This document shows, piece after piece, positions 1 to 55,751 of a DNA stretch of 64,000 nt. Below the pieces are notes generated by a model, which saw only the letters and a program-made list of their open reading frames with translations, ran no database searches and was not told the DNA's origin. Position 1 is the first letter of the stretch; each line of letters opens with the position of its first letter. Origin of the DNA: a virus; the IMG/VR virus record IMGVR_UViG_3300032334_001923, positions 1 to 64,000 of that record; one strand, written 5' to 3'. Made by a program: the position numbers and the translations under genes.

Positions 1-881
1 GAGTTAACGGGTCTTCTGGAACATCAGGAAGCTCGGGATCTAGTGGATCTTCAGGAAGCTCTGGATCTTCTGGAACAAGAGGATCTTCTGGAACCTCGGG
101 TAGCTCAGGATCTAGTGGATCTTCAGGAAGCTCTGGATCTGCAGGAACGTCTGGAGTTAACGGGTCTTCTGGAACATCTGGAACTTCAGGATCTAGTGGT
201 TTATCTGGTCTAGATGGAACAGCAGGATCTTCTGGAACTTCAGGCTCTTCAGGAACCTCAGGTAGCAGAGGATCTAGTGGATCTTCAGGAAGCTCAGGAT
301 CTTCTGGAAGCTCAGGATCTTCTGGAACATCAGGATCTGCTGGAACCTCAGGAGCTGGAGGATCAGCATATCCATCTTTTCAAGGCACAGTAGATGCTGG
401 AGATTATTATTCTATTGATTTCTTCACGCTCTTTAATGGATTGACTTGGGATACTTGGACGTTCCAAAACTTCTCTGCTGGATTTGTGATAGACTATGCT
501 ATTTCAGCAGGCAACTATTCAGGAGATCCTGGAAATAACTTCTGGAGAATATCTAAAAGAGCTGGTCAAATTCATGGGTATATTGATAATTTTGGTGGAT
601 ATGGAGGCGGAATTGCTCCCATTCCAACTCCTGCCAATTGGACGCCGTATGCTGACCAATACGCAGTCCAATCATATGACGTGAATTCAAGATCTCTCCC
701 ATCAGGACCTCCGCAGTACACTTGGTATGGGGATCAATTCACCGATATATTAAACGATTCTGTTAGACTTTTCTGTACTATCGATATAGCTGTAACTGGA
801 TATCCTACACTTATTATAGAAAATAGATCAACAGCTCAAATTTGGTATAATATTCAGGTTAATAGGTATATAAATCTATAA
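1..881 (+). CDS. Collagen-like tail fibre protein, 5' end outside the window
   Basis: The open frame enters from the left edge (first full codon at base 3) and ends with TAA at 879-881. About 39 Gly-X-Y triplets come first, nearly all GSS, GTS or similar, with rare GLD, GTA, GVN and GTR. A non-repetitive domain of about 170 residues rich in Tyr, Trp, Gly and Asn follows. Gly-X-Y repeats are known in phage fibres, where they form collagen-like trimeric stalks; the C-terminal domain is probably the tip or a trimerisation domain. An internal ATG at 441 exists but lies inside this domain, so it is not the true start. Two large appendage paralogues and a glycosyltransferase cassette lie downstream. 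The density of Ser and Thr makes it a plausible glycosylation acceptor, which is inference. Function as a fibre is likely; receptor and exact position are unknown. Confidence 0.75.
   Translation, partial: VNGSSGTSGSSGSSGSSGSSGSSGTRGSSGTSGSSGSSGSSGSSGSAGTSGVNGSSGTSGTSGSSGLSGLDGTAGSSGTSGSSGTSGSRGSSGSSGSSGSSGSSGSSGTSGSAGTSGAGGSAYPSFQGTVDAGDYYSIDFFTLFNGLTWDTWTFQNFSAGFVIDYAISAGNYSGDPGNNFWRISKRAGQIHGYIDNFGGYGGGIAPIPTPANWTPYADQYAVQSYDVNSRSLPSGPPQYTWYGDQFTDILNDSVRLFCTIDIAVTGYPTLIIENRSTAQIWYNIQVNRYINL
9..359 (+). repeat. Gly-Ser-Ser / Gly-Thr-Ser coding repeat
   Basis: About 39 consecutive 9-base units encode Gly-X-Y triplets. Longer DNA copies recur: GAGTTAACGGGTCTTCTGG occurs at the left edge and again near base 155, and GGATCTAGTGGATCTTCAGG recurs several times. 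This suggests expansion by recombination or slippage. The phase breaks at about base 350-359, where the non-repetitive domain starts. Confidence 0.9.
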
Positions 882-921
882 CACTAATTTTTAGGATACA
901 TAAACTATAAAATAGAAATAA

Positions 922-3054
922 ATGCCAACCCCTTTTTATTCCCAAACCGGACCCACATATAGAGACAGGATGTCGGTAAATCAGTCTCTCAAAGTTAAAG
1001 ACTCCATCTTTTCAGGGGAAGAGATTTTATTGATTGAGGATAACGTTACGACTATTAGAGCCTCTTTTTTTGGAAATCCCCAACAATTTCGTGCGGCATA
1101 TAAGAGAAGCAGAATTAATTGGTATCTAGCCCAGCTCTCTTATAAGGATGTCAGATCCCCAATTTGGTTTAGAGCAATCTCTGTTTTTAGGGGGAATAAT
1201 ACCGCAGCTGGTGATTTTACTACTTACTCTAAAAGACATGTTATATTAGAGAAACCCTTTGCACTTTTTGATTGGACATCTATCGGGGATGCCTTTGCAA
1301 ACTGGAAGTCAACTTTTGATAACGGAGCCGAGAGATTTAGCGAGGCCTCTCTGTATATTCAGCTTTACATTCCATGTAACGGACTCATAGAACCCCCACA
1401 TATTAAAGCACTGGTCAACACATCCTATCAGGATTTAGTTCCAACGTGGGAATCCGAGCCTTCATATCAGACGCATTACACCAGATGGTTTAAGATTGGA
1501 AATCTAACTGGCTGGCCTGGACTAGTGGGAGGATGGGCCAGTTGGATAGCTGATCTTAATAACAACGGCCAAAGCTTAGGAAACGTTATTCTTGACTGTG
1601 TGGGCTCATCAAAGCCATTCGGACTGGATAATAGTTATTACTCTGCACAAAACTGCTGGGAGGATCTCTGGACTGTTATGAGTGATAATTATTCTTCAGA
1701 TATTCAAAATACAGATTGGCAAGATATATTTTTCTATAACATCTATCTCGAGGAGAAGGGCAGGATCTTTAAAAAACCCATTTCACCTATCAGAGGATTC
1801 AAGTACGAGGCCAGACCGGTTCCTCAAAATGGACAGACTGGCTATGTGCCAGGATCTAGTAGATTTATGATCTTTGCATCTTTTAGACCTGCAATAGGAG
1901 GAAGTGACTTCTGTAAGTTTGAGAGAACTTGGACCTATGTATACGATGACACAGGTAGGCCCGTTATTAATACCGGACAAACTATTCCTTACGTCTTCCA
2001 AAAACTCACTTACCGAATGACAGAATCGGATGAGGTGCTTTGTCTTAAACAGAGTTTCCAGAGTTATCTCGGGGGTGAACCCAGATACGCCTGGGATTGG
2101 TTTTCAAGTGAGCAGTATAATACAGAGTATTACAATCCTAAAGACCCTTTTAATACCCAATTCTATTCTGCAGTCTATTCTACCTATGATAGATTTAATT
2201 ATGGAGGAGGTCTTCAGCTAACCCCATATTCAGCAGCTTGCTATGCAGTGAAGTTAGTCCCAGAGGAGCCTGCGGATTGGGGACCTGGTGGTGCTAATTG
2301 GCTGAATGTAATAGCAGACCTAAACACCAGGGCGGAAGAGAAATCCGGGCACGTCCCCCAATATCTACTTGATAACCCAGGAACTGTCGATCCCCGGGTT
2401 GGATTTATTTTAAGTGCCGAGTATTACGATATCCGGGATCTTGTTGACATCTTCAACGGTTATGGTTTAAACAATCAGTATTGCATAACTGTTGGTTATC
2501 AGTTTAGATTTGCTCTTTTTCCGGATAAGGCCACGTCATTGATCTATAATAGACCACAGGAGGCTTCAACTATATCCGGCGGACTAGGTGGAATTATGAC
2601 TTTCAAAGAGGAGAGATTCTCTGTGCCTTTTTGGGTATCCCCTTACACTCCAGCCGATCCTAAAGCACCTCTTGGAACTTCTACTATCCCTGGATTTGTT
2701 AATAGAGGTATGAACTCAGATGAGATAAGACTATATTCCCTTTTTTTGAACACAGGGCCATTCCCAATATTAATAAAGCATAAAAACCACATTATGTCTA
2801 AAATGAGACCAGGGAACGTTGAGATCAGATTCTGTACGTGGAAGAGCTATGATTACACATCAGCCCAGAATGCTAACGGGTGGTCAACTATAGATTATTA
2901 CGATGCCCAACCTAAGGCAGAATTCGGGAGATTTGCCAACAAGAAGCTGATCTTAAAAAAATACGGAAAGAACTTAACCTTTCACTTGGTGTATGAAGGT
3001 AGTTCACCTGATCATTTATTGCCACAGTACATCGAAGTGAACTACCCAGGATAA
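922..3054 (+). CDS. Large virion appendage protein, copy 1 of a tandem pair
   Basis: This 710-residue protein has no family I recognise. It is a paralogue of the next gene. Shared landmarks in order are KVKDS(I/V)FSGEEILL near residue 25, YIQLYIPCNGLIEPPHI near 150, EEKGRIFKKPISPIRGFKYE near 285, YGGGL.LTPYSAAC near 430, LFPDKATSL near 535 and KKLILKKYGKNLTFH near the C-terminus. It is rich in aromatic residues and has no signal peptide or membrane segment. Its place between a collagen-like fibre and an S74 fibre tip suggests a tail or baseplate appendage. The ATG follows an A-rich leader without a clear Shine-Dalgarno, as usual in Bacteroidota. Confidence 0.6.
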   Translation: MPTPFYSQTGPTYRDRMSVNQSLKVKDSIFSGEEILLIEDNVTTIRASFFGNPQQFRAAYKRSRINWYLAQLSYKDVRSPIWFRAISVFRGNNTAAGDFTTYSKRHVILEKPFALFDWTSIGDAFANWKSTFDNGAERFSEASLYIQLYIPCNGLIEPPHIKALVNTSYQDLVPTWESEPSYQTHYTRWFKIGNLTGWPGLVGGWASWIADLNNNGQSLGNVILDCVGSSKPFGLDNSYYSAQNCWEDLWTVMSDNYSSDIQNTDWQDIFFYNIYLEEKGRIFKKPISPIRGFKYEARPVPQNGQTGYVPGSSRFMIFASFRPAIGGSDFCKFERTWTYVYDDTGRPVINTGQTIPYVFQKLTYRMTESDEVLCLKQSFQSYLGGEPRYAWDWFSSEQYNTEYYNPKDPFNTQFYSAVYSTYDRFNYGGGLQLTPYSAACYAVKLVPEEPADWGPGGANWLNVIADLNTRAEEKSGHVPQYLLDNPGTVDPRVGFILSAEYYDIRDLVDIFNGYGLNNQYCITVGYQFRFALFPDKATSLIYNRPQEASTISGGLGGIMTFKEERFSVPFWVSPYTPADPKAPLGTSTIPGFVNRGMNSDEIRLYSLFLNTGPFPILIKHKNHIMSKMRPGNVEIRFCTWKSYDYTSAQNANGWSTIDYYDAQPKAEFGRFANKKLILKKYGKNLTFHLVYEGSSPDHLLPQYIEVNYPG

Positions 3055-3072
3055 CCTTAATAAAAATATACA

Positions 3073-5184
3073 ATGCCAGTCACATTTTCAAGTATAGGAG
3101 TCACATCCAGAGATTATAAATACATTAATAACTCTGTTAAGGTAAAGGATTCAGTTTTCTCAGGAGAGGAGATCCTTCTCTTCGAGGATAATGTTTTCAC
3201 TGGTAGAAGATTTTACCCTTCTGAGCAGGGGTTAAGCTCCCCCAACATCTGGATGACATTTATGAAGAGATCTAGAATTATGTGGTACTATAATACCTAT
3301 AATTCTAATGCCGAATCTCCCATATGGTTTAGAGCTGTTACTGTGATGCAGGGAAACGTTGTACTGGGATATGAAACTTTTAGTAAAAGACATGTTCTCC
3401 TAGAAAGGCCTCTCTCAAGTTTCAATTTTTCTGCCGTTCGTACGGCCTGTGTGGATTGGGTTCAAAACATATTCGACAATGGAGGAAGACGTGATAATAA
3501 CTTTTCGCTCTATATTCAGCTCTATATTCCGTGTAACGGTCTTATTGAACCTCCACATATTGCTTCACTGGTTAACACCTCTTATCAGGATCTCTCCCCA
3601 ACTTGGGAGGCTGTGGTTTCCTATTCTTCCCACTATACCAGATGGTACAATTGGGGTAACTTAACATCATTCAATGGTATATTTTACCATTGGCAACCTA
3701 GGATATCTAGCCTAGGTCCTGCTTCTTTCTTCGGTTCAATTTATAAATACATTGATAGTGATGTTGGTGGTGGGAATGGTCTATTATGGGGAAGGGATTA
3801 CTCTACATATTCACCATTTACACTTTGGATATCATGGTGGCAGTGGTTTAGTAATCTTTTTGAAGAGGTGGATCTTTGGGATTTTTTAGGTGCAAACTTA
3901 TATCTGGAGGAGAAAGGCAGAATTTTTAAAAAACCGATTTCCCCAATTAGAGGATTCAAGTACGAGTATCCAAATAGACGCACCCTTTATGGAGGAGGAC
4001 AGTATCCACAAATATTTGGCAGCGTTACTCTAGTTCATAACAACTGGAATATATTTTCATTGGATTGTCCGCAGCTTGGCAATCCTGCTCTTGGTACTAT
4101 TTGGAATTTCACGCAAGATTCTAAGCAGGGTAGATCTTATAATAATCTAAATTACGAGCCAGTTAGCAACTACCAAAAGCTCACTTATAGAATGACACAG
4201 TCTCCTGATGTCATCACGGTAAAACAGGCAACGACTTCATCGGGAGGCCCAAATTATGCTTGGGAGGTGATTGACAGTCGGGCTAATAAGAATTATCTCC
4301 CCCATGATCCCTTTAATTTAAACGCCAATTACCAAAACGGTTATAGCGCCGACAACCGCTATAGTTATGGAGGAGGTCTAAATCTAACACCATACTCTGC
4401 AGCTTGTTTTATTGTTCAATTATGTGGTGATATAGATATCAATCAGCTTAATACTCTCCTTAATGAATCAGCTGAGGCCTACTCGGGACACTTGCCTCAA
4501 ATAACAAACCTCTCTCCGAGTATTCTATATGGATTTGTGGTTAGTGCGGAGTACTATGATCTAAATAGTCTTCTGGATGTGTTAAACACTATAGTTCTGC
4601 CCAATCTAAACGGAGTAAGAATATGGCAGGGTTACTACTTTAAACTGGCTCTTTTTCCAGACAAAGCCACATCTTTGGTTTACACCCTACCTGCCGAGGT
4701 TTCTAAATCTTTATTGGGTGGAGACCCAGGTGTTAATAGTAGATCACATATTCTCGGAGCTCTCTTAACTTTCAAAGACGAGAGAATGACCGTCCCAATG
4801 TGGACTTATTCAAGATTAGCTTATCCATCTAAAGCTCCGATGCAGAATTTTTCTAATCTGAATTCAGCAGAGATCAGACTAGGTAATCTAGTTGGTGGTT
4901 ATATTGGGTTACCTATAAACGATAAAAGAGGTTTTTTTAACAAAATGAGACCGGGTAATGTTGAGATGCGATTCTGCACTTTTAAGCCCAATTGGTATAC
5001 ATCTTCAACAAATATGAATTCAGAATCTCCCTTTGATCAAAATCGTAATGAATTCGGAAGACTGGCAGATAAAAAACTCATTTTAAAAAGATATGGAAAA
5101 AATCTAACTTTCCATGTGGTTCTTGATAAAAGTCCCTCTGATGTACTTCTACCGCAAAGTGTTGAAGTCTACTATCCTGTATAG
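3073..5184 (+). CDS. Large virion appendage protein, copy 2 of a tandem pair
   Basis: This 703-residue protein is the tandem paralogue of the preceding gene and starts 18 bases after it. The two align over their whole length through the shared blocks listed there. They differ most in the middle (about residues 195-265 and 310-380) and around residues 480-520. Such a pattern, with a conserved frame and variable loops, is typical of structural proteins with different surface-binding parts. The pair could form a hetero-oligomer or act at successive positions of one appendage. No enzymatic motif is visible. Confidence 0.6.
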   Translation: MPVTFSSIGVTSRDYKYINNSVKVKDSVFSGEEILLFEDNVFTGRRFYPSEQGLSSPNIWMTFMKRSRIMWYYNTYNSNAESPIWFRAVTVMQGNVVLGYETFSKRHVLLERPLSSFNFSAVRTACVDWVQNIFDNGGRRDNNFSLYIQLYIPCNGLIEPPHIASLVNTSYQDLSPTWEAVVSYSSHYTRWYNWGNLTSFNGIFYHWQPRISSLGPASFFGSIYKYIDSDVGGGNGLLWGRDYSTYSPFTLWISWWQWFSNLFEEVDLWDFLGANLYLEEKGRIFKKPISPIRGFKYEYPNRRTLYGGGQYPQIFGSVTLVHNNWNIFSLDCPQLGNPALGTIWNFTQDSKQGRSYNNLNYEPVSNYQKLTYRMTQSPDVITVKQATTSSGGPNYAWEVIDSRANKNYLPHDPFNLNANYQNGYSADNRYSYGGGLNLTPYSAACFIVQLCGDIDINQLNTLLNESAEAYSGHLPQITNLSPSILYGFVVSAEYYDLNSLLDVLNTIVLPNLNGVRIWQGYYFKLALFPDKATSLVYTLPAEVSKSLLGGDPGVNSRSHILGALLTFKDERMTVPMWTYSRLAYPSKAPMQNFSNLNSAEIRLGNLVGGYIGLPINDKRGFFNKMRPGNVEMRFCTFKPNWYTSSTNMNSESPFDQNRNEFGRLADKKLILKRYGKNLTFHVVLDKSPSDVLLPQSVEVYYPV

Positions 5185-5193
5185 ATATATAGG
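5184..5193 (+). promoter_or_regulatory. Probable late promoter (GATATATAGG)
   Basis: The motif begins on the last base of the preceding stop codon. It matches the GATATATA element found before many structural genes in this window. It would start a short transcript ending at the terminator at 5277-5330. Confidence 0.5.
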
Positions 5194-5196
5194 ACA

Positions 5197-5330
5197 ATGC
5201 GCAACTCATCATACATTATATCTATGTGGCGCGGTAAATGAAGCTTCGACCTTCGAAATACAAAGTGGCTTCGATAAACGGGGTTTCGATCTGACTTTAC
5301 AACCAGTCTCCCCGTTATTTTTTTTTTTTG
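5197..5330 (+). ncRNA. Candidate short transcript (small RNA or micro-ORF pair)
   Basis: This intergenic stretch has its own late-type promoter at 5184 and a strong terminator at its end, so a transcript of roughly 130 bases is expected. It also holds two tiny ORFs joined by an ATGA overlap: 5197-5241 (MRNSSYIISMWRGK) and 5238-5294 (MKLRPSKYKVASINGVSI). The second runs into the 5' arm of the terminator. Neither peptide is recognisable. A small RNA, a leader peptide pair or chance are all possible. Confidence 0.35.
5277..5330 (+). terminator. Rho-independent terminator
   Basis: AACGGGG (5277-5283) pairs with CCCCGTT (5310-5316) across a 26-base loop. ATTT and a long T-run reaching 5329 follow. 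It separates the short unit from the S74 gene, whose own promoter starts immediately after. Confidence 0.75.
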
Positions 5331-5338
5331 ATATATAG
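5330..5338 (+). promoter_or_regulatory. Probable late promoter (GATATATAG)
   Basis: The motif directly follows the terminator T-run and lies 15 bases before the ATG at 5354 of the S74 tip gene. Placement right after a terminator supports a promoter role. Confidence 0.6.
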
Positions 5339-5353
5339 TTAAATTGATATAAA

Positions 5354-5941
5354 ATGCCAACAGACGGTAAAAAAGTAAGAAGACAGGCGGCAAGACACAC
5401 CGGAAGATACGTTGCATACGGAAGTGCAAATGCACTGGGACACTGGCCTGAACCCTCTGATTTCGGAGACAGAATTCTTTTTGTTAACGCAGAAGGTGTT
5501 ATGGGGGGAAATGATGACTACTGGCCGGTTGAGTACGCTAGACAACATCATGAGTGGAAACCGGTTACTGCCGCATATGCTTTTGTGGCTGAGTTTGCAA
5601 ACACTGTATCTGATGCTAAGTTAAAGACTAACATCGTTCCTATTCAGTCAGGCGATGGAGTCATAGATCTTTTAAATCCCGTACATTTCAACTGGAACAG
5701 TGTGTCTAAAAGAGATCAGGATATTCTAGAATCTGGATTTATAGCACAAGAGGTTGAGCAGATTCTTCCCTGTGCTGTTCATGAGATTAATAATCCTCAG
5801 ATTGGAACGAAGACAAAAATATTGGACTACCACAAGATAATACCTCATCTAGTTAAATACACAAAGGATCTCTCTGCAAAAGTTTCAGACCTAGAATCAA
5901 GACTTGCAGCTCTTGAATCCCAAATTTCTAATCCATCTTAA
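5354..5941 (+). CDS. Tail fibre tip with S74 self-cleaving chaperone domain
   Basis: The 195-residue protein ends in an intramolecular chaperone domain of the peptidase S74 type. The hallmark SDAKLK is at residues 86-91, giving the expected Ser86 and Lys91 dyad. A conserved body follows (LNPVHFNWN, GFIAQEVEQILP, LDYHKIIPHLVKYTK), and then a C-terminal heptad coiled coil. The family trimerises fibres and then cuts itself off just before the Ser. The part left in the virion would be only about 85 residues, unusually small, so this is either a short tip or a trans-acting chaperone module for a neighbouring fibre. It has its own promoter and sits after the appendage pair. Confidence 0.85.
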   Translation: MPTDGKKVRRQAARHTGRYVAYGSANALGHWPEPSDFGDRILFVNAEGVMGGNDDYWPVEYARQHHEWKPVTAAYAFVAEFANTVSDAKLKTNIVPIQSGDGVIDLLNPVHFNWNSVSKRDQDILESGFIAQEVEQILPCAVHEINNPQIGTKTKILDYHKIIPHLVKYTKDLSAKVSDLESRLAALESQISNPS

Positions 5942-5990
5942 ACCCCGAAATCTTTACGTTTTTTATCTCTATAAAAGATAAAAGCAAAAG

Positions 5991-6284
5991 ATGGAAAATC
6001 AAGCACCTTTACAGGAAAATCAAATTAAAATGTCAGACGAGCTTATCCTAGAGATCCAAGCTCTTAGAGACGAATTGACCCAAAATGTGGTTAGAATCGG
6101 AAGACTGAATGTTCAGCTTTCTTTTTATCGTAAGGATATGGAGATCATTAATAATGAGCTCAACTCTCTTTATCAGGCTGCAGAATCTATTTCTATTAAA
6201 GAAGACGACATCCAAAGAAAAGTTGTTGAACAGTACGGTGGTGGTAAATTAGATTTTGAAACTGGAATTTTTACTAAAGAGTAA
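5991..6284 (+). CDS. Small coiled-coil protein heading the glycosylation cassette
   Basis: This 97-residue protein is mostly a predicted coiled coil (heptad pattern about residues 12-75, for example ILEIQALRDELTQNVVRIG). Its tail contains GGGKLDFETGIF. An 8-base inverted repeat, TTTTATCT/AGATAAAA at 5961-5983, lies just before the start. The gene ends 6 bases before the GT4 glycosyltransferase. It could be a small fibre or whisker part, or a scaffold for the enzymes; nothing decides. Confidence 0.55.
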   Translation: MENQAPLQENQIKMSDELILEIQALRDELTQNVVRIGRLNVQLSFYRKDMEIINNELNSLYQAAESISIKEDDIQRKVVEQYGGGKLDFETGIFTKE

Positions 6285-6290
6285 TAATCG

Positions 6291-7274
6291 TTGGAGGAGA
6301 TAAAAAACATAGAACAAGATAGTAGTGGTGTGATTGTTTATATCACGCCACATCTTTCTACCGGAGGCCTTCCCCAATATCTCTTAAAGAAAATAGAGAG
6401 GTTCAGCAGATTTTCAACTATATACTGTGTCGAGTATTCGTACTATGGTGCTTCGTATGTCGTTCAGAGAGATAAGATATCTAGATTATTAGGTGATAGA
6501 TTTATATCATTAGGAGAAAAATCCGATTTGATTAAACATCTCAAAGAAATAAATCCGGATATCGTCCACTTCGAGGAGATAGTCGAAACATTTGTTGATG
6601 ATGAGATCCTATCTCAGATTTACAGAGATGATAGAAAATATTACATCTGTGAAACGTGTCATAGCTCAGATATATCCCCATCGATAAAAAGATTTTATCC
6701 CGATAAATTCATTATGGTTTCTCCGTGGATTAAGAATAAATTCGAAGTCCTTAATATTCCGTCTGAGATTCTTGAATATCCCATTGAGAAATTTACTTCA
6801 AGAAGGGACCTGGCTATTAGATCTCTGAGCTTGGACGTAAGAAAGAAACACGTAATCAACGTAGGTTTATTCACTTCGGGTAAAAATCAAAGCGAGCTTA
6901 TCGAATACGCTAGAGCACTAGCTAATCTGCCTATAGAGTTTCATTTTATCGGAAATCAAGCACCAAATTTTTCTGACTACTGGGGTCCTTTAATGAATAA
7001 TCTTCCTCCTAACTGCAGAATATGGGGCGAAAGACCTGATGTTGAATTATTCTATCAGATTGCTGATCTCTTTGTTTTCACCTCTAATTTCGAATTGAAT
7101 CCTTTGTGTGTTAAAGAGTCACTCTCATGGGGAAATAAGATACTATTAAAACCTCTTGAAACTTATATGTCTATCTATGACGATAATCCAAATGTTGGAT
7201 ATCTGACAGATGACAAGAACTTAAACGTGAGCATGATTCTTCAATCATTAGAACTTGTTAAAAAAATAGATTAA
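6291..7274 (+). CDS. GT4-type glycosyltransferase
   Basis: The 327-residue protein has the two-domain GT-B layout. The N-terminal part starts VIVYITPHLSTGGLPQYL, a GG-containing loop typical of GT4 enzymes. The C-terminal Rossmann part runs KKHVINVGLFTSGKNQSELIEYARAL, FHFIGNQ and DLFVFTSNFELNPLCVKESLSWG, including the E-x7-E-like nucleotide-sugar region. The start is TTG; no upstream ATG fits, and the next internal ATG would remove the acceptor domain. It follows the coiled-coil gene by 6 bases and is followed after 1 base by the heptosyltransferase, so the two enzymes are probably made together. It may extend or prime the glycan placed by its partner. Donor and acceptor are unknown. Confidence 0.8.
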   Translation: MEEIKNIEQDSSGVIVYITPHLSTGGLPQYLLKKIERFSRFSTIYCVEYSYYGASYVVQRDKISRLLGDRFISLGEKSDLIKHLKEINPDIVHFEEIVETFVDDEILSQIYRDDRKYYICETCHSSDISPSIKRFYPDKFIMVSPWIKNKFEVLNIPSEILEYPIEKFTSRRDLAIRSLSLDVRKKHVINVGLFTSGKNQSELIEYARALANLPIEFHFIGNQAPNFSDYWGPLMNNLPPNCRIWGERPDVELFYQIADLFVFTSNFELNPLCVKESLSWGNKILLKPLETYMSIYDDNPNVGYLTDDKNLNVSMILQSLELVKKID

Positions 7275-7275
7275 G

Positions 7276-8472
7276 ATGTTTGAAATAAACCCTAAGGGAT
7301 TCTCAGTTTACTCAGACCTTTTAAATGGTTCATTAGAGAAGAAAAGCTCTATGCCATCCTTTGTATACTCTTTTAATGGCTGCACCAGAGTTGATGTCAC
7401 TGCATCAGGTTTTAAAAACCTCTCTTTTGTTGCCAATTTTTTTGAAGAGAATAACCATATCTACTCTTGCACACTAGGATCTGGAATGTTTGGAAACATT
7501 TTAAAAGCATGGGTTTCTGATTGGAGAATAGAGATGAAAGACTCGGATGGTAAAATAATTGACACGCATTCTTTCCTAGAAGATTTAAAAAAATCTAAAA
7601 TTCTAATCAGATTTGATAGTAGTTCATTAGGAGACACCATAGCATGGATGGGGTGTGTTAAACCCTTTATGGAGAAATATTCTCCTGGGTTTGTTTACGT
7701 CTCAACTTTCTACAACGATCTTTTTAAATCAGAATATCCTGAAATTGAATTTATAGAACCCAACACAAACTACAGAGATGCAAAGATCATCATTGGATTA
7801 GGTTGGTACACAGAGTCCGATAGAAATGTGCATAAGAGAGATCCAAGAACTATACCTCTTCAATCCGTTGCAGAGGATATACTGGGTCTTTCTTTAGATA
7901 AAGAGCAAAGACCTAGAATTTCTAAAACCTTTAATCCTCCTCCTGTGGAAGGAAGATATGTATGTATTGCAACAGAGTCAACCGCTGGAGCCAAGTATTG
8001 GCATCATCCCGGAGGTTGGCAAAAACTCGTCGATCTCCTAAACACACTAGGTTATTCTGTTGTCGTTATACAAAAACAGTCAACCACTCTTAAAAACGTT
8101 ATAGACAGAACTGGAGATCTGCCTCTAAACGAGAGGATTAGCGATCTTCTTGGTTGCGATTTCTTTATAGGGATAGGCTCTGGACTTTCATGGCTTGCTT
8201 GGGGTTTGGATATTCCTGTTGTTATGATATCTGGATTTAGTCAACCATTTTGTGAATTCTCAGATAAAACTCTTAGAATAATCAACACCAAAGTTTGCCA
8301 CGGATGCTTCAATAATCCGGATCATAAATTTGACAAAGGAGATTGGTGGTGGTGCCCAGAACATAAAAACACATCTAGACACTTCGAATGCACCAAATCT
8401 ATTACTCCTCAGGAGGTTTTAAGACAAATCTTAAATTCAAATATAGCTGAATGGAAACATTCTGCTTCTTAA
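7276..8472 (+). CDS. Autotransporter-type protein O-heptosyltransferase (TibC/AAH family)
   Basis: The 398-residue protein matches the bacterial autotransporter heptosyltransferase family, which moves heptose from ADP-heptose to Ser residues of proteins. The N-terminal part has WRIEMKDSDGKIIDTHSFLEDLK followed by LIRFDSSSLGDTIAWMG. The GT9-like core has IPLQSVAEDILGL, ESTAGAKYWHHPGGWQKLVD and GSGLSWLAWGLDIPVVMISGFSQP. The C-terminal metal finger is complete: Cys341, Cys344, Cys360 and Cys372 in the context CHGC, GDWWWCP and ECTKS. In this family the finger binds iron and is required for activity. Known members sit beside autotransporter adhesins in proteobacteria; here the neighbours are phage fibre genes. 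A phage-encoded heptose kinase lies at 34574-35626. The family call is strong; the acceptor, probably a Ser-rich fibre, is inferred. Confidence 0.88.
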   Translation: MFEINPKGFSVYSDLLNGSLEKKSSMPSFVYSFNGCTRVDVTASGFKNLSFVANFFEENNHIYSCTLGSGMFGNILKAWVSDWRIEMKDSDGKIIDTHSFLEDLKKSKILIRFDSSSLGDTIAWMGCVKPFMEKYSPGFVYVSTFYNDLFKSEYPEIEFIEPNTNYRDAKIIIGLGWYTESDRNVHKRDPRTIPLQSVAEDILGLSLDKEQRPRISKTFNPPPVEGRYVCIATESTAGAKYWHHPGGWQKLVDLLNTLGYSVVVIQKQSTTLKNVIDRTGDLPLNERISDLLGCDFFIGIGSGLSWLAWGLDIPVVMISGFSQPFCEFSDKTLRIINTKVCHGCFNNPDHKFDKGDWWWCPEHKNTSRHFECTKSITPQEVLRQILNSNIAEWKHSAS

Positions 8473-8523: not shown

Positions 8524-11013
8524 ATGAGTTTTTATCCAGAAGATAAATTTCCAAAAGAAGGACAACCCGTTTATAACGGAAACGGAGAACAATATGATCT
8601 CACTGATCAACGATTTTCCTATCAGGATGGTTTAGAAAACACCAAAAAATACAAGGAATCCTCTGTAAATAATCTGTTTTCTACACCAGGGGCTGCTATG
8701 GCCAGAGGTCAGCAGATAGGATGTGGGGGATATCACGAGGTTATAATAGACGGTGCCACTTACTATAAACCCTGTGAATCTGCTAGCTATTACGATCTCA
8801 GAATGGAGCAGCTTGATAGTGCTCTCAATTTCACATATATCGGAAGCCACCGTGTTCTTACCTGGGATAAGCCTTTTGAAAATGTTACAACATTTAATGG
8901 GTGGATTATAGATGCGGCAAATAGCAATAGTAGTGGTCCTATAATAAATGCTGACGACATAGCTATAGATTTCAGATACAGCATAGACGGAAAAACATGG
9001 TCTTTATGGGTAAACGTTGGAACAGCTCTTGGTGGATTAACTAATGAGTTTTCCCAACTTTTCCCAATTTCTCTAGATCCTGAAAATAAATTCTATCCCG
9101 AGTTTAGATTTACCTCAGTTTTAAGAAACGCGGATGGAACGATTATAGTTACCCCGGATGAACCGATAGATCCTAGCGTGGTTATAGTGAGTTTTGAACT
9201 CGACTTAGATTATGCTCCAGTTCCAGAGACCCTGATAACTAGACCTGCTCCAGTTTGCTCAAATGAGATTTCAAATAGGCCTGTAGTTATAAGTGATTGT
9301 AAATTCACATTCAATCCTTATAATGTAAATAAGGCTTTAAATATGTATAAGGATTTAAGTCTAATGATCAACAAAGTATTTGGACTGGACGCTAATTATT
9401 ACTCAATCCAACCCCAGGCAAGAGGAAAGGATGTGGTGCTAAAAGAATACACTTTATTTAACGTTGTTTCTGAGAAGTGTATGAAGATCATGGTTCCTCA
9501 GAATCAATTTCCCGATAATAAGATCAACTTTGATCCGTTCGGTCTACAGTTTGAAGAGCCTTTTGAAATACAGATTGATAAGAGATATTTTGAAAGTATT
9601 TTCGGTAAGGGATCTCAGCCTAGGAAGAGAGACATAATTTATTTTCCTCTAACAAACAGAATTTATGAGATAAACTCAACTTATTTGTTTAGAGATTTTA
9701 TGCAATCCCCAGTTTACTTTAAGATAGAGCTCAGAAAATACAGTCCGAAGAGTAACACTTACTTCCAGGATCCTGCATATAAGGAAGAGCTTGACGGAAT
9801 AACCCTAACAACTTCTGAACTATTTGGAGAGGAGGTTAAATCTGAAGAAATAAAATCTTCTAAGCCACAACAATACGCAACTACTATTACTCAGATGTCT
9901 CAGGATCCGATCAGATCCTATGTTTATAACGAGCTTCCTATTATAGAATATGATCTTAATAACAACTGGACTATAGTATTAAATCACTACTACGATCTTT
10001 CTGAAGCTTTTGCAGATGTTTCAGAATTTGAATCGGATCCTAATAGATATAAAAATGCTGTTAGATATAAGTATCTTCCAAAGCTCCTTGCAAACCAAGA
10101 ACTTGCATTTACATGCTGGTTTAGTCTTAGAAATTTTTACGACAACTCCAAACTTTCTAAAAGAGGATATCCTATATTAAATATGACATTGGAATCATAT
10201 GATGAGGACTATCTAAACTTTAGCACATATCCGAAAAGACATAGACTTGAGAAATGGATTTCTTATGCTTCAAACCCGGAGGGATACGTAGCAATTAAAG
10301 GTGATTCGATTCACTCAGGCGGATATGAGGTTTTAGATGTGATTGATGAATATAGATTTTCTGTTAAAAACAATTCAACAACTTTCTCCGAAGGATCAAT
10401 TTCTTGGAGAATGCAGAAAGCACAGAATAGAAATCTTATAAGTGGACTTTATATAAATGAGTTTGAAGAATTTGAAGGATTCAGGGTGGATCTAATCCAC
10501 TCCGGAGTTATTGACGATCTAACCAATCCTTTCTTAGGTCAGGGTAGTATAGTTATAAGATTGAACGATAGAATCATAAACTCTCCACTTCAATTCGAAC
10601 CTGAATATGGTGAATGGTATGGAGTTGTGGTAAATGTTTCTAACGTATACAAACAGATCTCTACAAATATATGGGCTTTAACATACGATCCTGTAGACCC
10701 TGATCAGCAAAGTAGCAAACTACAAAAAGTTCATGAAGATGCTAGATTCTATAACGACATCATAGTTTTTGCTGCTCCTCCTGATGTCGAAAAGAACACA
10801 GATAGTGCTTTCTATGGAACCGATAACAATTCTTATAAAATATTCACTGGTCCTATTTACCTCAGCAATGTAAGACTGTTTAAGAATATGATAGATATAG
10901 ATACCCAATCAACAGTTCTAAATCAGAATATTGTTAGAGATGCTCAATTAGCACACATTATTGATAACGCAAAACCATTACTAAATATTCCTAAGTTCGC
11001 TAGAAATAGATAA
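8524..11013 (+). CDS. Large structural protein upstream of the terminase genes
   Basis: The 829-residue protein is not recognised with certainty. It is rich in Asn, Asp, Tyr and Phe, without membrane segments. The first third holds beta-rich stretches such as DFRYSIDGKTWSLWVNVG. The last third (about residues 540-810) resembles a LamG/concanavalin-like fold, ending GPIYLSNVRLFKNMID, which would suit carbohydrate binding. It ends 3 bases before the small terminase gene, the place where T4 has neck and tail-completion genes. A neck, baseplate or fibre-attachment part is likely; a specific T4 counterpart cannot be named. Confidence 0.55.
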   Translation: MSFYPEDKFPKEGQPVYNGNGEQYDLTDQRFSYQDGLENTKKYKESSVNNLFSTPGAAMARGQQIGCGGYHEVIIDGATYYKPCESASYYDLRMEQLDSALNFTYIGSHRVLTWDKPFENVTTFNGWIIDAANSNSSGPIINADDIAIDFRYSIDGKTWSLWVNVGTALGGLTNEFSQLFPISLDPENKFYPEFRFTSVLRNADGTIIVTPDEPIDPSVVIVSFELDLDYAPVPETLITRPAPVCSNEISNRPVVISDCKFTFNPYNVNKALNMYKDLSLMINKVFGLDANYYSIQPQARGKDVVLKEYTLFNVVSEKCMKIMVPQNQFPDNKINFDPFGLQFEEPFEIQIDKRYFESIFGKGSQPRKRDIIYFPLTNRIYEINSTYLFRDFMQSPVYFKIELRKYSPKSNTYFQDPAYKEELDGITLTTSELFGEEVKSEEIKSSKPQQYATTITQMSQDPIRSYVYNELPIIEYDLNNNWTIVLNHYYDLSEAFADVSEFESDPNRYKNAVRYKYLPKLLANQELAFTCWFSLRNFYDNSKLSKRGYPILNMTLESYDEDYLNFSTYPKRHRLEKWISYASNPEGYVAIKGDSIHSGGYEVLDVIDEYRFSVKNNSTTFSEGSISWRMQKAQNRNLISGLYINEFEEFEGFRVDLIHSGVIDDLTNPFLGQGSIVIRLNDRIINSPLQFEPEYGEWYGVVVNVSNVYKQISTNIWALTYDPVDPDQQSSKLQKVHEDARFYNDIIVFAAPPDVEKNTDSAFYGTDNNSYKIFTGPIYLSNVRLFKNMIDIDTQSTVLNQNIVRDAQLAHIIDNAKPLLNIPKFARNR

Positions 11014-31306: not shown

Positions 31307-32920
31307 ATGGCTGGTTTTGTAAATAATAATAACCCCTCAGAATCTCCGGTAATACAGAGAATAAGAGAATCCGTAAAGAGGCTTAGTACCTTTGGGATGA
31401 AGTATGATGACATGGTCATCAGAAACTCCCAGGCGGTTGGGGTTACCGAGGCTGCTTTCCTAAACAAAAATAAGTCAAATGTAGAAGATGAAAGCATGCT
31501 TTGGACATTGGCCAAACAGGATATAACCACAAAGCAATTTGTCTCTTATTTTGATAAAGATTATAAGGGAAAAAGAGATTATCTTAGAAAATTTTCTCTC
31601 AATCCTGAGATAGAGTGGGTGCTTGATACAATCTGTGACGAGTCCGTTTCGTATGACCCAGCAAACTTTTTTGCATACCCTGACTTTCTAGACCTTACTG
31701 ATATAAACGAAAAGATAAAGGACGAGCTTTACGAGACTTATAAGAAAATATACGATTTCTGGGGATTCAATGATGATATCTCTGCATGGCAGTATTTTAG
31801 ACAGTTTCTTGTTGATGGGTTTTTATGCTTTGAGATAATCTATGATAATTCGGGAAAAGAAATAGTCGGATTTAAGGAGCTTGATCCTATAACAATAGTT
31901 CCTAGTGTTGAAAAACAAATAGATGGATCTTTCTTAAATACTTGGACTCAATTTCCACAAGATCCCAGAAAGAGAAGGATACTCTATGATCCTCAGGTGA
32001 TCTATATTTCTTACGCTAAAGGTAATTCAATCTCGAGAATAAGCTACATTGAGAGACTTATTAGACCTTACAATATTCTTAGAATTATAGAATATACCAG
32101 GGTTATATGGTCTGTTATGAATGCTTCTTTTAGACTTAAGATGACAGTTCCTATAGGAACTAAATCACAACAGAAAGGGCTTCAAACTCTGGGCGAGCTT
32201 ATGAGTATCTACAAGGAGGATGTTCAGTTAAATGATGATACCGGAGAACTTCTTATTGACGGAAGACCTAAAATACAGTTCTATAAGAATTATCTGATGC
32301 CTTCTGGCGTTAACGGAACTCCTACTATCGAGCCTTTAAATACCGAAGGACCTAACCTTAATGACAATCAGCCACTAAGTTATTTCTTTGATAAGTTTGT
32401 ACTTGAATCTAAAATACCTGCATCTAGATTTCATCAGCCAGACGGAGGAAACACTTCTGCTTATGCTAATGCTGCTGAGGGTTTAGATAAGGAAGAGATT
32501 AGGTTTTCTAAATTTATTTCCAGACTTAGATCTATATTCCAGGAAATCATGACCAAACCTCTTTGGGTTCAGATGGTTAAAAAACATCCCGAATTAGAAA
32601 AAGACTTTATGTTCAAGAGTCAGTTAGGTCTTGATTATTTTTCTGACAATCCCTTTAAAATAAATCAGGAGATTGACATAATAAATAAAAAGAAAGAGGC
32701 TGTTTCTTCGATGGCGGGATTAATGGGAGACGGAGAAAAAACATATTTCTCTGTTCCTTTCTTAATTGAAACATTCCTTGGATTATCTAAACAGGATATC
32801 AAGGCGAATAAAGAGGCTATAGAGAGAAGAGAAAAAAAGAAAGAAAAAGAGAGTAAAGAAGGCGAGGGAGGAGAAGAAGGTGGCGAAGAAGGAGAAGGAG
32901 GAGAAGCAGTAACATTATAA
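31307..32920 (+). CDS. Portal vertex protein (gp20-like), copy 1
   Basis: The 537-residue protein belongs to the T4 gp20 portal family: WQYFRQFLVDGFLCFEIIYD, GFKELDPITIVPSVEK, VIYISYAKGNSISRISYIER and VIWSVMNASFRLKMTVPIGT. Portals form dodecamers at one capsid vertex, bind the terminase and later the tail neck. The C-terminus is a Glu/Gly/Lys-rich tail (about 505-537). Its tandem paralogue starts 10 bases downstream. One of the two may not form the channel. Confidence 0.88.
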   Translation: MAGFVNNNNPSESPVIQRIRESVKRLSTFGMKYDDMVIRNSQAVGVTEAAFLNKNKSNVEDESMLWTLAKQDITTKQFVSYFDKDYKGKRDYLRKFSLNPEIEWVLDTICDESVSYDPANFFAYPDFLDLTDINEKIKDELYETYKKIYDFWGFNDDISAWQYFRQFLVDGFLCFEIIYDNSGKEIVGFKELDPITIVPSVEKQIDGSFLNTWTQFPQDPRKRRILYDPQVIYISYAKGNSISRISYIERLIRPYNILRIIEYTRVIWSVMNASFRLKMTVPIGTKSQQKGLQTLGELMSIYKEDVQLNDDTGELLIDGRPKIQFYKNYLMPSGVNGTPTIEPLNTEGPNLNDNQPLSYFFDKFVLESKIPASRFHQPDGGNTSAYANAAEGLDKEEIRFSKFISRLRSIFQEIMTKPLWVQMVKKHPELEKDFMFKSQLGLDYFSDNPFKINQEIDIINKKKEAVSSMAGLMGDGEKTYFSVPFLIETFLGLSKQDIKANKEAIERREKKKEKESKEGEGGEEGGEEGEGGEAVTL

Positions 32921-32930
32921 AAAAATTGAG

Positions 32931-34556
32931 ATGGCAGGATTTTTAGACGCATTTAAACCAAATCAGTCCGCACTAGGAAACATAATTCGAAACCTTGGAA
33001 AAATATCCAAGTTTGGAATGGAGTATGATGATATGGTTGTGAGGAACTCTCAAGCTATTGGTAAAACAGAGTCAGCTTTCTTTAATCAGCAAGGAACCGG
33101 ATTCACGGAAAATGACGCTTTTTACTGGACCCTATCATATCAAGACACTAGAGTTAGAAAATACATAGCTTACTTTGATAAAGATTATATCGAAAAAAGA
33201 AATTTTCTTAGAAAATTTTCTCTTAACGGTGAGATAGAGTTTATCATAGATACTATTACCGACGAATCTATTTCTTATGATGATAGAAATTTTTTCGCCA
33301 GACCTTCTTTTATAAATCTTCAGGATCTCAAAGAAAGAACTAAAGATAAAATAGAGGAGAATTTCAATAGACTCTATAATGTGTTTGGCTTCCAGAATTC
33401 TATATCAGCATGGCAGCTATTCAAGCAATTCTTAGTTGATGGATTTTTAGCATTTGAAATAATCTATGACAATAAAGGCAAGGAAATAATCGGTTTTAAA
33501 GAACTGGATGCAACCTCACTTCAGCCTGCTGTTGAGAAAGTTGGTGAAAATGAATATAAACAGTTTTGGATTCAATATCCAAAAAATCCTCAAATGACTA
33601 GAAAGCTTACCAATGAGCAAGTCATTTATATCTCATATGCTAAGGGTAATTCTGTATCAAGAGTAAGCTATCTGGAGAGATTGGTTAGATCTTATAACAT
33701 TTTAAGAATAATGGAAAACTCAAGAGTTATCTGGAATGTTATGAATGCCTCCTATAGGTTAAAGTTTATAATCCCGACGGGAACCCAATCCCCACAGAAA
33801 GCAATGCAGACTTTGGGCCAGCTTATGTCTCATTATAAAGAGGAAATATCTCTTAATGACACATCGGGGGAATTAACGGTAAACGGTAAGCCTAAGGTTC
33901 AATTTTATAAGAATTATTTATTTCCTGAACAAAATGGACAATCCCCTCAGGTTGAGTCTTTAAATCCAAGTGGTCCGGATTTTAACGTAATGGAGAACGT
34001 TTTATACTTCTTCAATAAACTTAAAATGGACTCTAAAATACCTTATGCTCGATTTGCATCAAGAGGAGCTACTCCTATAAATTATCAGATAAGTATAGAT
34101 GCTCTGGAAAGAGATGAAATTAGATTTGAGAAATTTTTAAGAAGGCTTAGATCTGTTTTCCAGGAGATATTGGTTAAACCTCTATACATTCAGATGTGTT
34201 TAGATTACCCTGAACTTGCTAAAGATAGAAGCTTTAAAGTTAATCTTGGTCTTCAATTCTACAAGGATAGTCAATTCGAAGAAATCGTTGAACTTTCAAA
34301 TTACAAAAAAAGAACTGAGTTTATAGCAGGACTTTTAGAATTAAAAATGAAAGTTGGCGAAGAGGAAAAAACATACTTCGATAATGATTTCTTGATTCAA
34401 AGGTTCTTAGGATTAACCCCTGATCAGTTTAAGCTGAATGAGGAGTATAAAAAAAGAGAAGAGAAAGAAGCAGAAAAAGCATCTAAGGAAGAAGGTGGAG
34501 GAGAAGGTGAAGAGGGAGGCGAAGGTGAAGGAGGCGCAGAGGCAGTAACTTTATAA
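32931..34556 (+). CDS. Portal vertex protein (gp20-like), copy 2
   Basis: The 541-residue paralogue aligns with copy 1 end to end: WQLFKQFLVDGFLAFEIIYD, GFKELDATSLQPAVEK, VIYISYAKGNSVSRVSYLER, VIWNVMNASYRLKFIIPTGT and a Gly/Glu-rich tail ending EAVTL, the same last five residues as copy 1. Both keep all portal landmarks, so neither looks decayed. Differences cluster near residues 345-395, where copy 1 reads RFHQPDGGNTSAYANAAEG and copy 2 reads RFASRGATPINYQ. Confidence 0.88.
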   Translation: MAGFLDAFKPNQSALGNIIRNLGKISKFGMEYDDMVVRNSQAIGKTESAFFNQQGTGFTENDAFYWTLSYQDTRVRKYIAYFDKDYIEKRNFLRKFSLNGEIEFIIDTITDESISYDDRNFFARPSFINLQDLKERTKDKIEENFNRLYNVFGFQNSISAWQLFKQFLVDGFLAFEIIYDNKGKEIIGFKELDATSLQPAVEKVGENEYKQFWIQYPKNPQMTRKLTNEQVIYISYAKGNSVSRVSYLERLVRSYNILRIMENSRVIWNVMNASYRLKFIIPTGTQSPQKAMQTLGQLMSHYKEEISLNDTSGELTVNGKPKVQFYKNYLFPEQNGQSPQVESLNPSGPDFNVMENVLYFFNKLKMDSKIPYARFASRGATPINYQISIDALERDEIRFEKFLRRLRSVFQEILVKPLYIQMCLDYPELAKDRSFKVNLGLQFYKDSQFEEIVELSNYKKRTEFIAGLLELKMKVGEEEKTYFDNDFLIQRFLGLTPDQFKLNEEYKKREEKEAEKASKEEGGGEGEEGGEGEGGAEAVTL

Positions 34557-34573: not shown

Positions 34574-35626
34574 TTGGATCCCTTTATTTTTTACAAAGAA
34601 TTTAAAAAAACAAGATCACGTAAAATAGAATCTCTATCTGATCTTAATATACTCGTAGTAGGAGACGTTATGCTAGATCATTATATCTACGGATCAGCAA
34701 CAAGAATTTCTCCAGAAGCACCAGTTCCCGTAGTTTTAAAAAAAGAAGAAAAGTTTTTTCTGGGTGGAGCGGGTAATGTTTTTTCCAATATAATATCACT
34801 GGGAGGCAAATCTGAGATCCTAACTGTTCTTGGGAATGATGAAGGGTCTCAAAAGATCTTATCTATACTAAAAGACCTAACTTGTAAAAACCAGTCTCTT
34901 ATTTTCTATTCTGACGACAGGAAAACAACAGTAAAGTCAAGAGTAATGTCAGGAGGACACCAGATGTTAAGAATAGATGATGAAACGACTAACCCCATAG
35001 ATGTCCAATTGGAGGATTTGATATTAACTGAATTCTCTTTATGTTGCGGAAATTACTCGGGAGTGATACTTCAGGATTATAATAAGGGTGTTCTAACCCC
35101 TAGAGTTATAGAAGGAATAATAGAAAAATGTAAGGAGAAAAAAATTCCAGTTATAGTAGATCCTAAAAAGAATAACATACAATCTTACAGAGGATCCACC
35201 ATTTTTAAACCTAATTTTTCGGAGTTTTGCAATATAGTTGGAAAAGAAATAGACCCTAACGATCAAAGCTCTATTTCTAAATATTCCTCACTTCTAAGAA
35301 AAGAAATGGATGTAGAAAATCTGGTTATAACAATGTCAGATCTTGGTATTTATTTTTCCAGCTCATTTTGCGATTCTTTTAGTCCAGCATACGAAGTTAA
35401 GGTATCAGATGTGTCCGGAGCAGGAGACACTGTTTTGGCTATGCTGTCCCTTTGTTATCTAGCAGGGACAGATCCTAAAAATATGCTATCCCTATGTAAT
35501 CTTGCGGGGTCCATAGCATGTAGTAAAGTCGGTGCAGTATCTGTCAAGTTATCAGAAATAGAAAATCACCCCGAGATGAAAAAGAAGATAAGTGAAGAAA
35601 GAATTTTTATTTTTGATAATAATTAA
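34574..35626 (+). CDS. D-glycero-beta-D-manno-heptose-7-phosphate kinase (HldA/RfaE-domain-I type)
   Basis: The 350-residue PfkB-family kinase has the heptose kinase signatures ILVVGDVMLDHYIYG (about 25-39), RISPEAPVPVV, LGGAGNVFSNI (63-73) and SGAGDT (281-286, catalytic Asp285). The enzyme phosphorylates heptose 7-phosphate at C1 on the way to ADP-heptose. The adenylyltransferase domain of HldE is absent, so that step would need a host or other phage enzyme. The start is TTG; the next in-frame ATG lies inside the GDVMLD motif. It follows the portals and precedes a host-type promoter. It is the probable donor-supply partner of the heptosyltransferase at 7276, more than 26 kb away. PfkB specificity assignments carry some risk. 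Confidence 0.82.
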   Translation: MDPFIFYKEFKKTRSRKIESLSDLNILVVGDVMLDHYIYGSATRISPEAPVPVVLKKEEKFFLGGAGNVFSNIISLGGKSEILTVLGNDEGSQKILSILKDLTCKNQSLIFYSDDRKTTVKSRVMSGGHQMLRIDDETTNPIDVQLEDLILTEFSLCCGNYSGVILQDYNKGVLTPRVIEGIIEKCKEKKIPVIVDPKKNNIQSYRGSTIFKPNFSEFCNIVGKEIDPNDQSSISKYSSLLRKEMDVENLVITMSDLGIYFSSSFCDSFSPAYEVKVSDVSGAGDTVLAMLSLCYLAGTDPKNMLSLCNLAGSIACSKVGAVSVKLSEIENHPEMKKKISEERIFIFDNN

Positions 35627-41234: not shown

Positions 41235-42137
41235 ATGCTATTTGGCCAAAATCCACCCGAGATAACATATTTAGGAAAACCAAAAGAATTTGGTGATGAG
41301 AAGGTTGTTTTAAACTCCTATCTTGATCTTATTTCCGCCATTAGAAAATTTTTAGAGTTCAATCTATCTCTTGATATAAAGATAGTTTGTCTTGATGTTT
41401 CTGATTTTTCTTTTTCTCCCGATTTCTTCAACACGCCTATAGAAGAGGAGTCCCCGTTAGTATCAAATGAAATAGATGCAATAAACACGTTAATATCTAA
41501 GAATAATATAAGGATATGTGTTTTTATAGGTAAGGATTATTTTTTGGGCAGTCAGTTGGAAGTTGTTGTAGATTCGACAGTAAGCTTACTAAACAGATTA
41601 TCGGGTATACTTGATGTTATAGGTGTAAACTACCCATCCATAATGATCAGAATAGGTTCTGCCTACGGAAACAGAAAGTTAACTATGGATGAATTTTGCA
41701 ATAGACTTTCTTTATTGGATGATAATACTGTTTCAAAGCTGTGTGTCATGAATGACGATAAGCCAAGCCTATTCTCAATAACAGATCTTTTATCTGGTGT
41801 TTATTATAAATCAGGAATACCTATATGTTTTAGAATACTTCCGCATCAATTTAATGATGGTGGATTAACCATAAGGGAAGCGCTCTTTTTATCGGGCTCA
41901 ACCTGGGATAAAGGATGCAAACCTATCTTTTTCCATTCGGAGTCTTCCGATCTTGATTCGGACGGTATACCGAACACACCTCACACAACGGAATACCTAA
42001 CTAGAAGAATCCCAACATTTGGTTTAGATCTAGACGTTGTCATAGAATCCACAGCAAAGGAGGATTCTTGTCTAAAATACAGAATGGATTATAAATCCCT
42101 ACCTCCGATAGTTATAAATAAAATAAACCGAAAATAA
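41235..42137 (+). CDS. UvdE-like TIM-barrel protein, active site altered
   Basis: The 300-residue protein resembles UV damage endonucleases. LCVMNDDKPSLFSITDLLSG (169-188) corresponds to the LENDD region, GIPICFRILPHQF (194-206) to the region after it, and HTTEYLTRRIP plus VVIESTAKED (268-277) to the C-terminal metal-binding part. Several expected metal ligands are changed: the Glu of LENDD is Met172, and the usual Asp before the His pair is replaced. His204, His250 and Glu271 remain. It may have lost or changed catalysis, or be a divergent xylose isomerase-like barrel. Confidence 0.55.
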   Translation: MLFGQNPPEITYLGKPKEFGDEKVVLNSYLDLISAIRKFLEFNLSLDIKIVCLDVSDFSFSPDFFNTPIEEESPLVSNEIDAINTLISKNNIRICVFIGKDYFLGSQLEVVVDSTVSLLNRLSGILDVIGVNYPSIMIRIGSAYGNRKLTMDEFCNRLSLLDDNTVSKLCVMNDDKPSLFSITDLLSGVYYKSGIPICFRILPHQFNDGGLTIREALFLSGSTWDKGCKPIFFHSESSDLDSDGIPNTPHTTEYLTRRIPTFGLDLDVVIESTAKEDSCLKYRMDYKSLPPIVINKINRK

Positions 42138-55199: not shown

Positions 55200-55751
55200 A
55201 TGATTTACGTTTTTGAAGGCCCAAGGAATTCGGGCAAAACATTTCTTTCTGACATTATCTCAAGCTCAATGGGAATTCCTAGATTTCAATTTGATTTTAG
55301 CGGATCTTTTAAGATGTTAAATCTCGACAGTAAAAGCAGGGAGGCACATTCTTTTGCCATGGGCAAAGAACTTATGATTATGCAGCTAGCAAAAGACCTA
55401 GACAAATCTATGCCTAGCTTTATACATGATAGGGGAATATTAAGTGTTTTGACCTGGGGAATACTTGAAAACAGAATAAGCAAATCCCAAGCTATAAGTC
55501 AATTAGAATATGTCTCTAAGTCAGGTTTACTTGAAAGAATACGAATCATTTATATAGACGGAAAAAATCCTCAGAAAAGAGTTATGAAAAAAGATGATTG
55601 GGATTTTGCAGAAAAGTCGTCTAGGGAGGAGGATATCTACAAATTCCTTATATCTCAATTATCTCAAAAAAATATATCTGTTTTCAAGAACTCTTTTGAT
55701 GCTAAATCAGTAGAAGATATCAAAACACTTTTCTCTAAAAATTTACTATAA
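55200..55751 (+). CDS. P-loop nucleotide kinase (deoxynucleotide/thymidylate kinase-like)
   Basis: The 183-residue protein starts MIYVFEGPRNSGKTFLSDII, with P-loop GPRNSGKT (7-14). Later SFIHDRGILSVLTWGI has the DR-like motif of dNMP and deoxynucleoside kinases, and VMKKDDWDFAEKSSREEDIY may form the lid. It probably phosphorylates a deoxynucleotide. Specificity cannot be read. The stop overlaps the ATG of the asparagine synthetase by one base, so the two are translated together. Confidence 0.7.
   Translation: MIYVFEGPRNSGKTFLSDIISSSMGIPRFQFDFSGSFKMLNLDSKSREAHSFAMGKELMIMQLAKDLDKSMPSFIHDRGILSVLTWGILENRISKSQAISQLEYVSKSGLLERIRIIYIDGKNPQKRVMKKDDWDFAEKSSREEDIYKFLISQLSQKNISVFKNSFDAKSVEDIKTLFSKNLL

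Follow-up and report, generated by a model that had tools for sequence, protein, structure and literature searches.

The window analysed here, the first 64 kb (64,000 nucleotides) of a 127,287-base virus record (IMG/VR record IMGVR_UViG_3300032334_001923; coordinates prefixed C1 refer to the whole record), encodes a TibC/Aah-type protein O-heptosyltransferase coupled to a glycosyltransferase of family GT4, within the tail/neck module of a myovirus that also carries a serine-rich collagen-like fibre (Table 1). We consider it likely that this enzyme represents a subfamily, found in phages and bacteria, that O-glycosylates, and probably heptosylates, collagen-like fibres made of Gly-x-Ser (G-x-S) triplets, here the phage's own fibre. 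The observations that carry this reading are the enzyme family, its fold and active-site residues, a donor-pathway gene, the gene order and a statistical coupling to G-x-S proteins.

The membership of the enzyme in the TibC/Aah family, proposed by an initial annotation made from the sequence alone, is confirmed by profile search, fold and conserved residues, with heptose transfer to serine as the predicted activity. The protein reaches 273.9 bits (1.9e-81) against the NCBIfam hidden Markov model (HMM) TIGR04414 (hepto_Aah_TibC; curated equivalog cut-off 200), and its best phmmer matches in the PDB are the TibC structures 4rap/4rb4 (4e-52). Its AlphaFold model (pLDDT 84.5) retrieved TibC chains as all of the top 21 Foldseek matches (TM 0.75-0.86, E down to 6e-33), reproducing the N-terminal beta-barrel and the GT-B core with finger of TibC at TM 0.83/0.86 over 393 alignment columns, whereas WaaF/WaaC reach TM 0.41-0.60. 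Fold and HMM thus rule out a lipopolysaccharide (LPS) heptosyltransferase of the WaaC/WaaF type, and TibC comes out far ahead in the structural comparison suggested by the initial annotation. The residues Asp120, Thr236, Lys240, Arg287 and Trp306 match D110, T226, K230, R286 and W305 of TibC, the first being the catalytic base and the others contacting the donor. All four finger cysteines lie where they had been annotated; the roles of these residues and cysteines are known for TibC (PMC4358343).

The GT4 gene ends one base upstream of the heptosyltransferase gene, as the annotated coupling implied. Its product, a putative extender or second protein glycosyltransferase, shows an E-x7-E motif (ELNPLCVKE) in the alignment and a BshA/MshA/PglA-like fold, with SdgB at rank 40. 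A GT4 homologue was found within 8 kb of the heptosyltransferase at most phage loci (10/11, 38/46 and 17/20 in three phage sets), and at none of 19 bacterial chromosomal loci. Other phage cassettes include further genes, for GT2, FkbM and other methyltransferases, a 2OG-Fe(II) oxygenase and proteins with weak matches to GT25, the family of collagen galactosyltransferases; the oxygenase, GT25-like and methyltransferase genes are located at L012:6478-7068, L008:1666-4353, L019:7719-9911 and L017:2679-5465.

The open reading frame (ORF) at the start of the window comprises 40 G-x-x triplets, of which 30 read G[ST]S, and matches Pfam Collagen (PF01391) with 62.9 bits. The serine-rich collagen-like fibre of the initial annotation therefore stands, while its estimated length of about 39 triplets falls short, 156 more being encoded at the far end of the record. 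The two ORFs are probably parts of one fibre gene; as a direct junction of their ends would be out of frame, some repeat sequence is probably missing between them, and several related contigs likewise break within G-x-S repeat genes. Taken together, both parts comprise 197 triplets with serine (57%) or threonine (32%) at X, serine (81%) at Y and ~1% proline. The fibre thus has the long Gly-X-Y repeat of PF01391 without its proline-rich X and Y positions, and its triple helix is predicted. By contrast, Pro-type phage collagen fibres bear proline at 53% of X and threonine at 44% of Y positions, and bacterial collagen-like proteins usually have proline at X and threonine at Y (PMC8968730). A long plus-strand G-S/T-S repeat ORF running off the record start was also observed in the cultured Microcystis phage Mel-JY01 (L048, PP395634.1, positions 2-3052), where the annotated minus-strand ORFs 1-651 and 739-2298 overlie it and likely represent a misannotated fibre gene; next to this fibre, Mel-JY01 encodes the enzyme as a fusion with GT4-type domains.

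Independent association tests, on phages and on bacterial chromosomes, support the annotated target, i.e. the serine-rich collagen-like phage fibre. Most heptosyltransferase-bearing phage loci with enough flanking sequence contain a G-x-S fibre. Within the window's own lineage, defined as 80 loci found via the neck protein, a G-x-S block occurs in 23/32 enzyme-positive and 3/15 enzyme-negative records (p 0.001; as the records are related to one another, this and the following p values are guides). These positives include two phages (L094 and L156) with a GSS fibre and no enzyme at the usual place, in which the enzyme was suspected from the fibre and then found ~150 kb away. In the reverse direction, G-x-S phages were selected by the DNA pattern (GGN WSN WSN)10, i.e. 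ten Gly-(S/T)-(S/T) triplets, and controls by a Gly-Pro-x DNA pattern, and records were sorted by translated composition before the enzyme search, except for five short added controls sorted in parallel with it. The enzyme was detected in 16/29 G-x-S records vs 0/17 Pro-type collagen phages in the first set and in 6/17 vs 0/16 in a replication set, i.e. 22/46 vs 0/33 when pooled (Fisher p 4e-7), and in 15/38 vs 0/16 when only records with a G+C content below 0.46 were considered (p 0.002). These counts leave out L177/G061, which has both repeat types and the enzyme. L352, although drawn by the Pro pattern, counts as a G-x-S record, a class it had been given ahead of the enzyme search.

The same pairing was recovered from bacterial chromosomal loci, where the partner of the enzyme is a G-x-S protein that is small and secreted, and tail genes are lacking. 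In Methylomonadaceae, a secreted G-x-S protein is encoded next to the phage-like enzyme (303-327 bits) at 7/8 loci, against 0/5 for classical enzymes (654-663 bits; p 0.005), 3/5 of which adjoin proteins with O_hepto_targRPT (AIDA-type) repeats. Pairs of enzyme and G-x-S protein were also found in an Arenicellales, a Polaromonas and another gammaproteobacterial metagenome-assembled genome; a survey of 369 Gammaproteobacteria genomes yielded two matches, both previously known. A classical autotransporter substrate was rejected for the phage studied here, which contains none of the classical target repeats (TIGR04415). Across 12 phage records and 5 enzyme-bearing bacterial genomes, TIGR04415 gave no match above cut-off and one below it, with a positive E. 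coli control.

The recurrence of the gene exceeds chance: scanning IMG/VR revealed at least 20 contigs with a relative of the heptosyltransferase, in clearly different gene neighbourhoods and from several lineages. In the window's lineage, the order small protein, GT4, heptosyltransferase, neck protein is common. In a tree of 76 non-redundant sequences, some deep nodes of which are weak and whose rooting depends on the classical group, a long branch (support 0.955) sets the classical TibC-like proteins apart, and at two places the bacterial enzymes linked to G-x-S proteins fall within phage diversity, which suggests a transfer of the pair from phages into some bacteria. One G-x-S phage (G652:80414-95308) has several heptosyltransferase matches, at least two of them near-complete and two partial.

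Part of the donor supply appears to be phage-borne. The HldA-type heptose-7-phosphate kinase of the window matches TIGR02198 over its full length, below the curated cut-off (311 vs 345 bits), the next families scoring at most 62 bits except HldE itself (228 bits); such a kinase is also encoded by a relative (G001). A GmhA gene (sedoheptulose-7-phosphate isomerase; C1:114482-114745, i.e. L024:13482-13745) is an apparent remnant limited to the first 87 amino acids, and a motif scan and a TIGR02199 search of this phage found neither GmhB nor HldC. Distant lineages show the gene orders heptosyltransferase, HldC, HldA (L018) and heptosyltransferase, HldC (L019), and G044, G050 and G061 likewise carry HldA- and HldC-like genes; these cases are too few to compare enrichment between G-x-S and Pro-type phages. 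Donor-site residues and phage-borne ADP-heptose genes thus argue for the heptose named in the initial annotation, short of proving it.

From these observations we infer the substrate, sugar, occupancy, timing, GT4 role and physical consequence as follows. The enzyme would be a cytoplasmic protein O-glycosyltransferase, of a subfamily apart from the classical autotransporter heptosyltransferases, that, late in infection and ahead of virion assembly, would use ADP-heptose to attach heptose to serines within the Gly-(Ser/Thr)-Ser tract. The GT4 enzyme would probably add a second sugar or modify the same tract, and the phage kinase would help provide the donor from a host pathway. TibC uses ADP-heptose and modifies serine, not threonine, of repeat proteins (PMC4358343), a specificity that fits the serine bias at Y of the fibre. 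The modification would likely provide a stiff, soluble and protease-resistant collagen-like stalk free of proline, and possibly tune adsorption. By analogy with BclA, tracts without proline at X and threonine at Y may require sugar for their stability. Extending this, we tentatively suggest, while holding it somewhat doubtful, that proline-free, collagen-like Gly-x-Ser tracts are hyperglycosylated by the subfamily, to which phages add GT4 and further sugar- or methyl-transferring enzymes, with the sugar replacing proline/hydroxyproline as stabiliser of the triple helix.

Several observations weigh against heptosylation of the G-x-S fibre. About half of the G-x-S phage records are without a detectable heptosyltransferase; many of these records are fragments, but others are not small, such as G654 (104 kb) and G041 (148 kb). 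The phage records are interrelated, and the enzyme shares with collagen-like fibres a tendency to lie in tail modules. At one locus (L441, G061:86000-105900) the collagen-like gene nearest to the heptosyltransferase is of the Pro type, in a record that also matches the Gly-Ser/Thr pattern. The adenine contact Arg287, kept here, is lost in about half of the phage relatives and in 7/9 bacterial G-x-S-linked enzymes, so that specificity for ADP may not hold throughout. The TibC thumb (a beta-hairpin with F265/V266, involved in dodecamer assembly) is apparently lost, the alignment showing gaps of 4 and 5 residues (nine in all) at its site and the model no hairpin between residues 265 and 275. Finally, with a kinase and a truncated GmhA as its only pathway genes, this phage must rely on its host for the remaining steps.

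The same fibre could be glycosylated with another sugar, the enzyme using a hexose nucleotide in place of ADP-heptose, which we regard as unlikely. The wide variation of Arg287 among relatives would agree with this, as would most G-x-S phages being devoid of HldA, HldC or any other heptose-pathway gene, for which host ADP-heptose would otherwise be needed; the window protein, however, retains all five catalytic and donor-site residues and passes the TIGR04414 equivalog cut-off, and HldA/HldC genes occur in heptosyltransferase-bearing phages, adjoining the gene itself in L018/L019. It is less probable still that the enzyme heptosylates another virion protein (the sheath, the neck or the 703/710-residue paralogs described below) or a host protein, its linkage to G-x-S fibres reflecting shared residence in the tail module. 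Tail modules commonly hold fibre genes, and in several lineages the cassette lies immediately upstream of neck, terminase and sheath genes. Shared residence is nevertheless argued against by the lack of association with Pro-type collagen fibres, by the tail-free chromosomal pairs and by L094 and L156, where the enzyme is far from the neck/fibre region.

Glycosyltransferases and rfaE in the fibre regions of pelagimyophages have been proposed to change the host LPS/O-chain against other phages (PMC7029224). Given this precedent, and WaaC/WaaF being distant structural relatives of the enzyme, the glycosyltransferases and heptose gene might likewise alter the host surface to exclude competitors; this is highly improbable here, as fold and finger motif are those of TibC and the G-x-S association would be left unexplained. 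That the heptosyltransferase is a non-functional passenger is hardly credible: the truncated GmhA does indicate partial decay of the pathway in the same phage, but 63 divergent, non-redundant phage relatives show conservation of the residues of active site and finger, and close relatives hold an intact copy of the gene in syntenic position.

The record is assigned to a myovirus by its terminase, tail sheath, tail tube, major head protein and two adjacent portal genes. The neck gene directly downstream of the heptosyltransferase anchors the cassette in this structural module. The 97-residue protein upstream of the cassette was rejected as a member of the glycosylation pair and is probably structural, as it is also found in many relatives that have no heptosyltransferase at this place. 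Tandem paralogs of 710 and 703 residues (922-3054 and 3073-5184), without Pfam or PHROG match, lie between fibre and cassette. The tandem portal genes (31307-32920 and 32931-34556) both match phrog_213 (5e-56 and 1e-64), and the heptose kinase gene directly follows them. A UvsE-like ultraviolet endonuclease and an asparagine-synthase-like amidotransferase are encoded at 41235-42137 and 55751-57160.

Table 1. Features of the fibre, glycosylation and donor-supply genes (window coordinates unless prefixed C1).
Feature	Position	Strand	Basis and remarks
3' part of Gly-Ser/Thr-Ser collagen-like fibre gene	3..881	+	5' end off contig; triplet count, Pfam Collagen
Probable other part of the fibre gene	C1:125272-127287 (outside window)		Last ORF, runs off far record end; 156 further triplets
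Peptidase_S74 (intramolecular chaperone) tail-fibre end domain	5354..5941	+	Pfam PF13884, 3.4e-13; PHROG tail fibre
97-residue protein upstream of the cassette	5991..6284	+	Comparison with relatives
GT4 glycosyltransferase of the cassette	6291..7274	+	Pfam Glycos_transf_1, 1.5e-7, above cut-off
TibC/Aah-type protein O-heptosyltransferase	7276..8472	+	398 residues; HMM, fold, residues
Codon of catalytic-base Asp120 (TibC Asp110)	7633..7635	+	Asp in 62/63 non-redundant phage and 13/13 bacterial relatives
Predicted iron-finger module, Cys341-Cys344-Cys360-Cys372	8296..8391	+	Each Cys in 59-60/63 phage and 13/13 bacterial relatives
T4-type neck / head closure protein	8524..11013	+	PF11649; phrog_679
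HldA-type heptose-7-phosphate kinase, possible heptose-donor supply	34574..35626	+	TIGR02198, 6.4e-93, 311 bits

If correct, our reading would mean that protein O-heptosylation is not confined to a few autotransporter adhesins but also reaches a class of virion fibres present in diverse and mostly uncultured phages, and it would provide a substrate rule (G-x-S). It would also show a way in which proline-free collagen-like phage fibres might be stabilised, give a reason for the glycosyltransferases frequently encoded next to phage fibres, and open a path to producing densely glycosylated collagen-like polymers in bacteria. The initial annotation knew of no phage example. At the database level this does not hold, a phage protein being already named 'Glycosyltransferase Aah/TibC' (A0A6J5SVC1), while no description of a phage TibC-type system or G-x-S fibre pairing turned up in our search of the literature; the enzyme is therefore not unseen in phages, and the part for which this search gave no paper is the substrate pairing.

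With the classical TibC/AAH enzymes (BAHT, TIGR04414), the phage enzyme shares fold, catalytic aspartate, donor-site residues, the four-cysteine finger and an HMM score above the equivalog cut-off. It differs from them by its separate clade, the apparent loss of the thumb, its phage-borne and GT4-linked gene, and a collagen-like G-x-S partner in place of an autotransporter or O_hepto_targRPT repeats. Glycans on phage virion proteins are known from mycobacteriophages, where they are placed on capsid and tail-tube C-termini and no TibC-type enzyme or collagen-like target is described (Freeman 2023, cited in PMC12619734). Glycosylated bacterial collagen-like proteins of the BclA type have Gly-X-Y repeats in common with the fibre, and the sugars they carry are believed to stabilise their triple helix (PMC8968730); the tracts studied here differ by serine at Y, almost no proline, other enzymes and their place in a virion fibre. 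Mimivirus, too, attaches sugars to collagen-like proteins of its own (PMC8968730, PMC9546862), but it is a eukaryotic virus and does so via hydroxylysine, whereas the system described here presumably acts by direct O-heptosylation of serine in a tailed phage.
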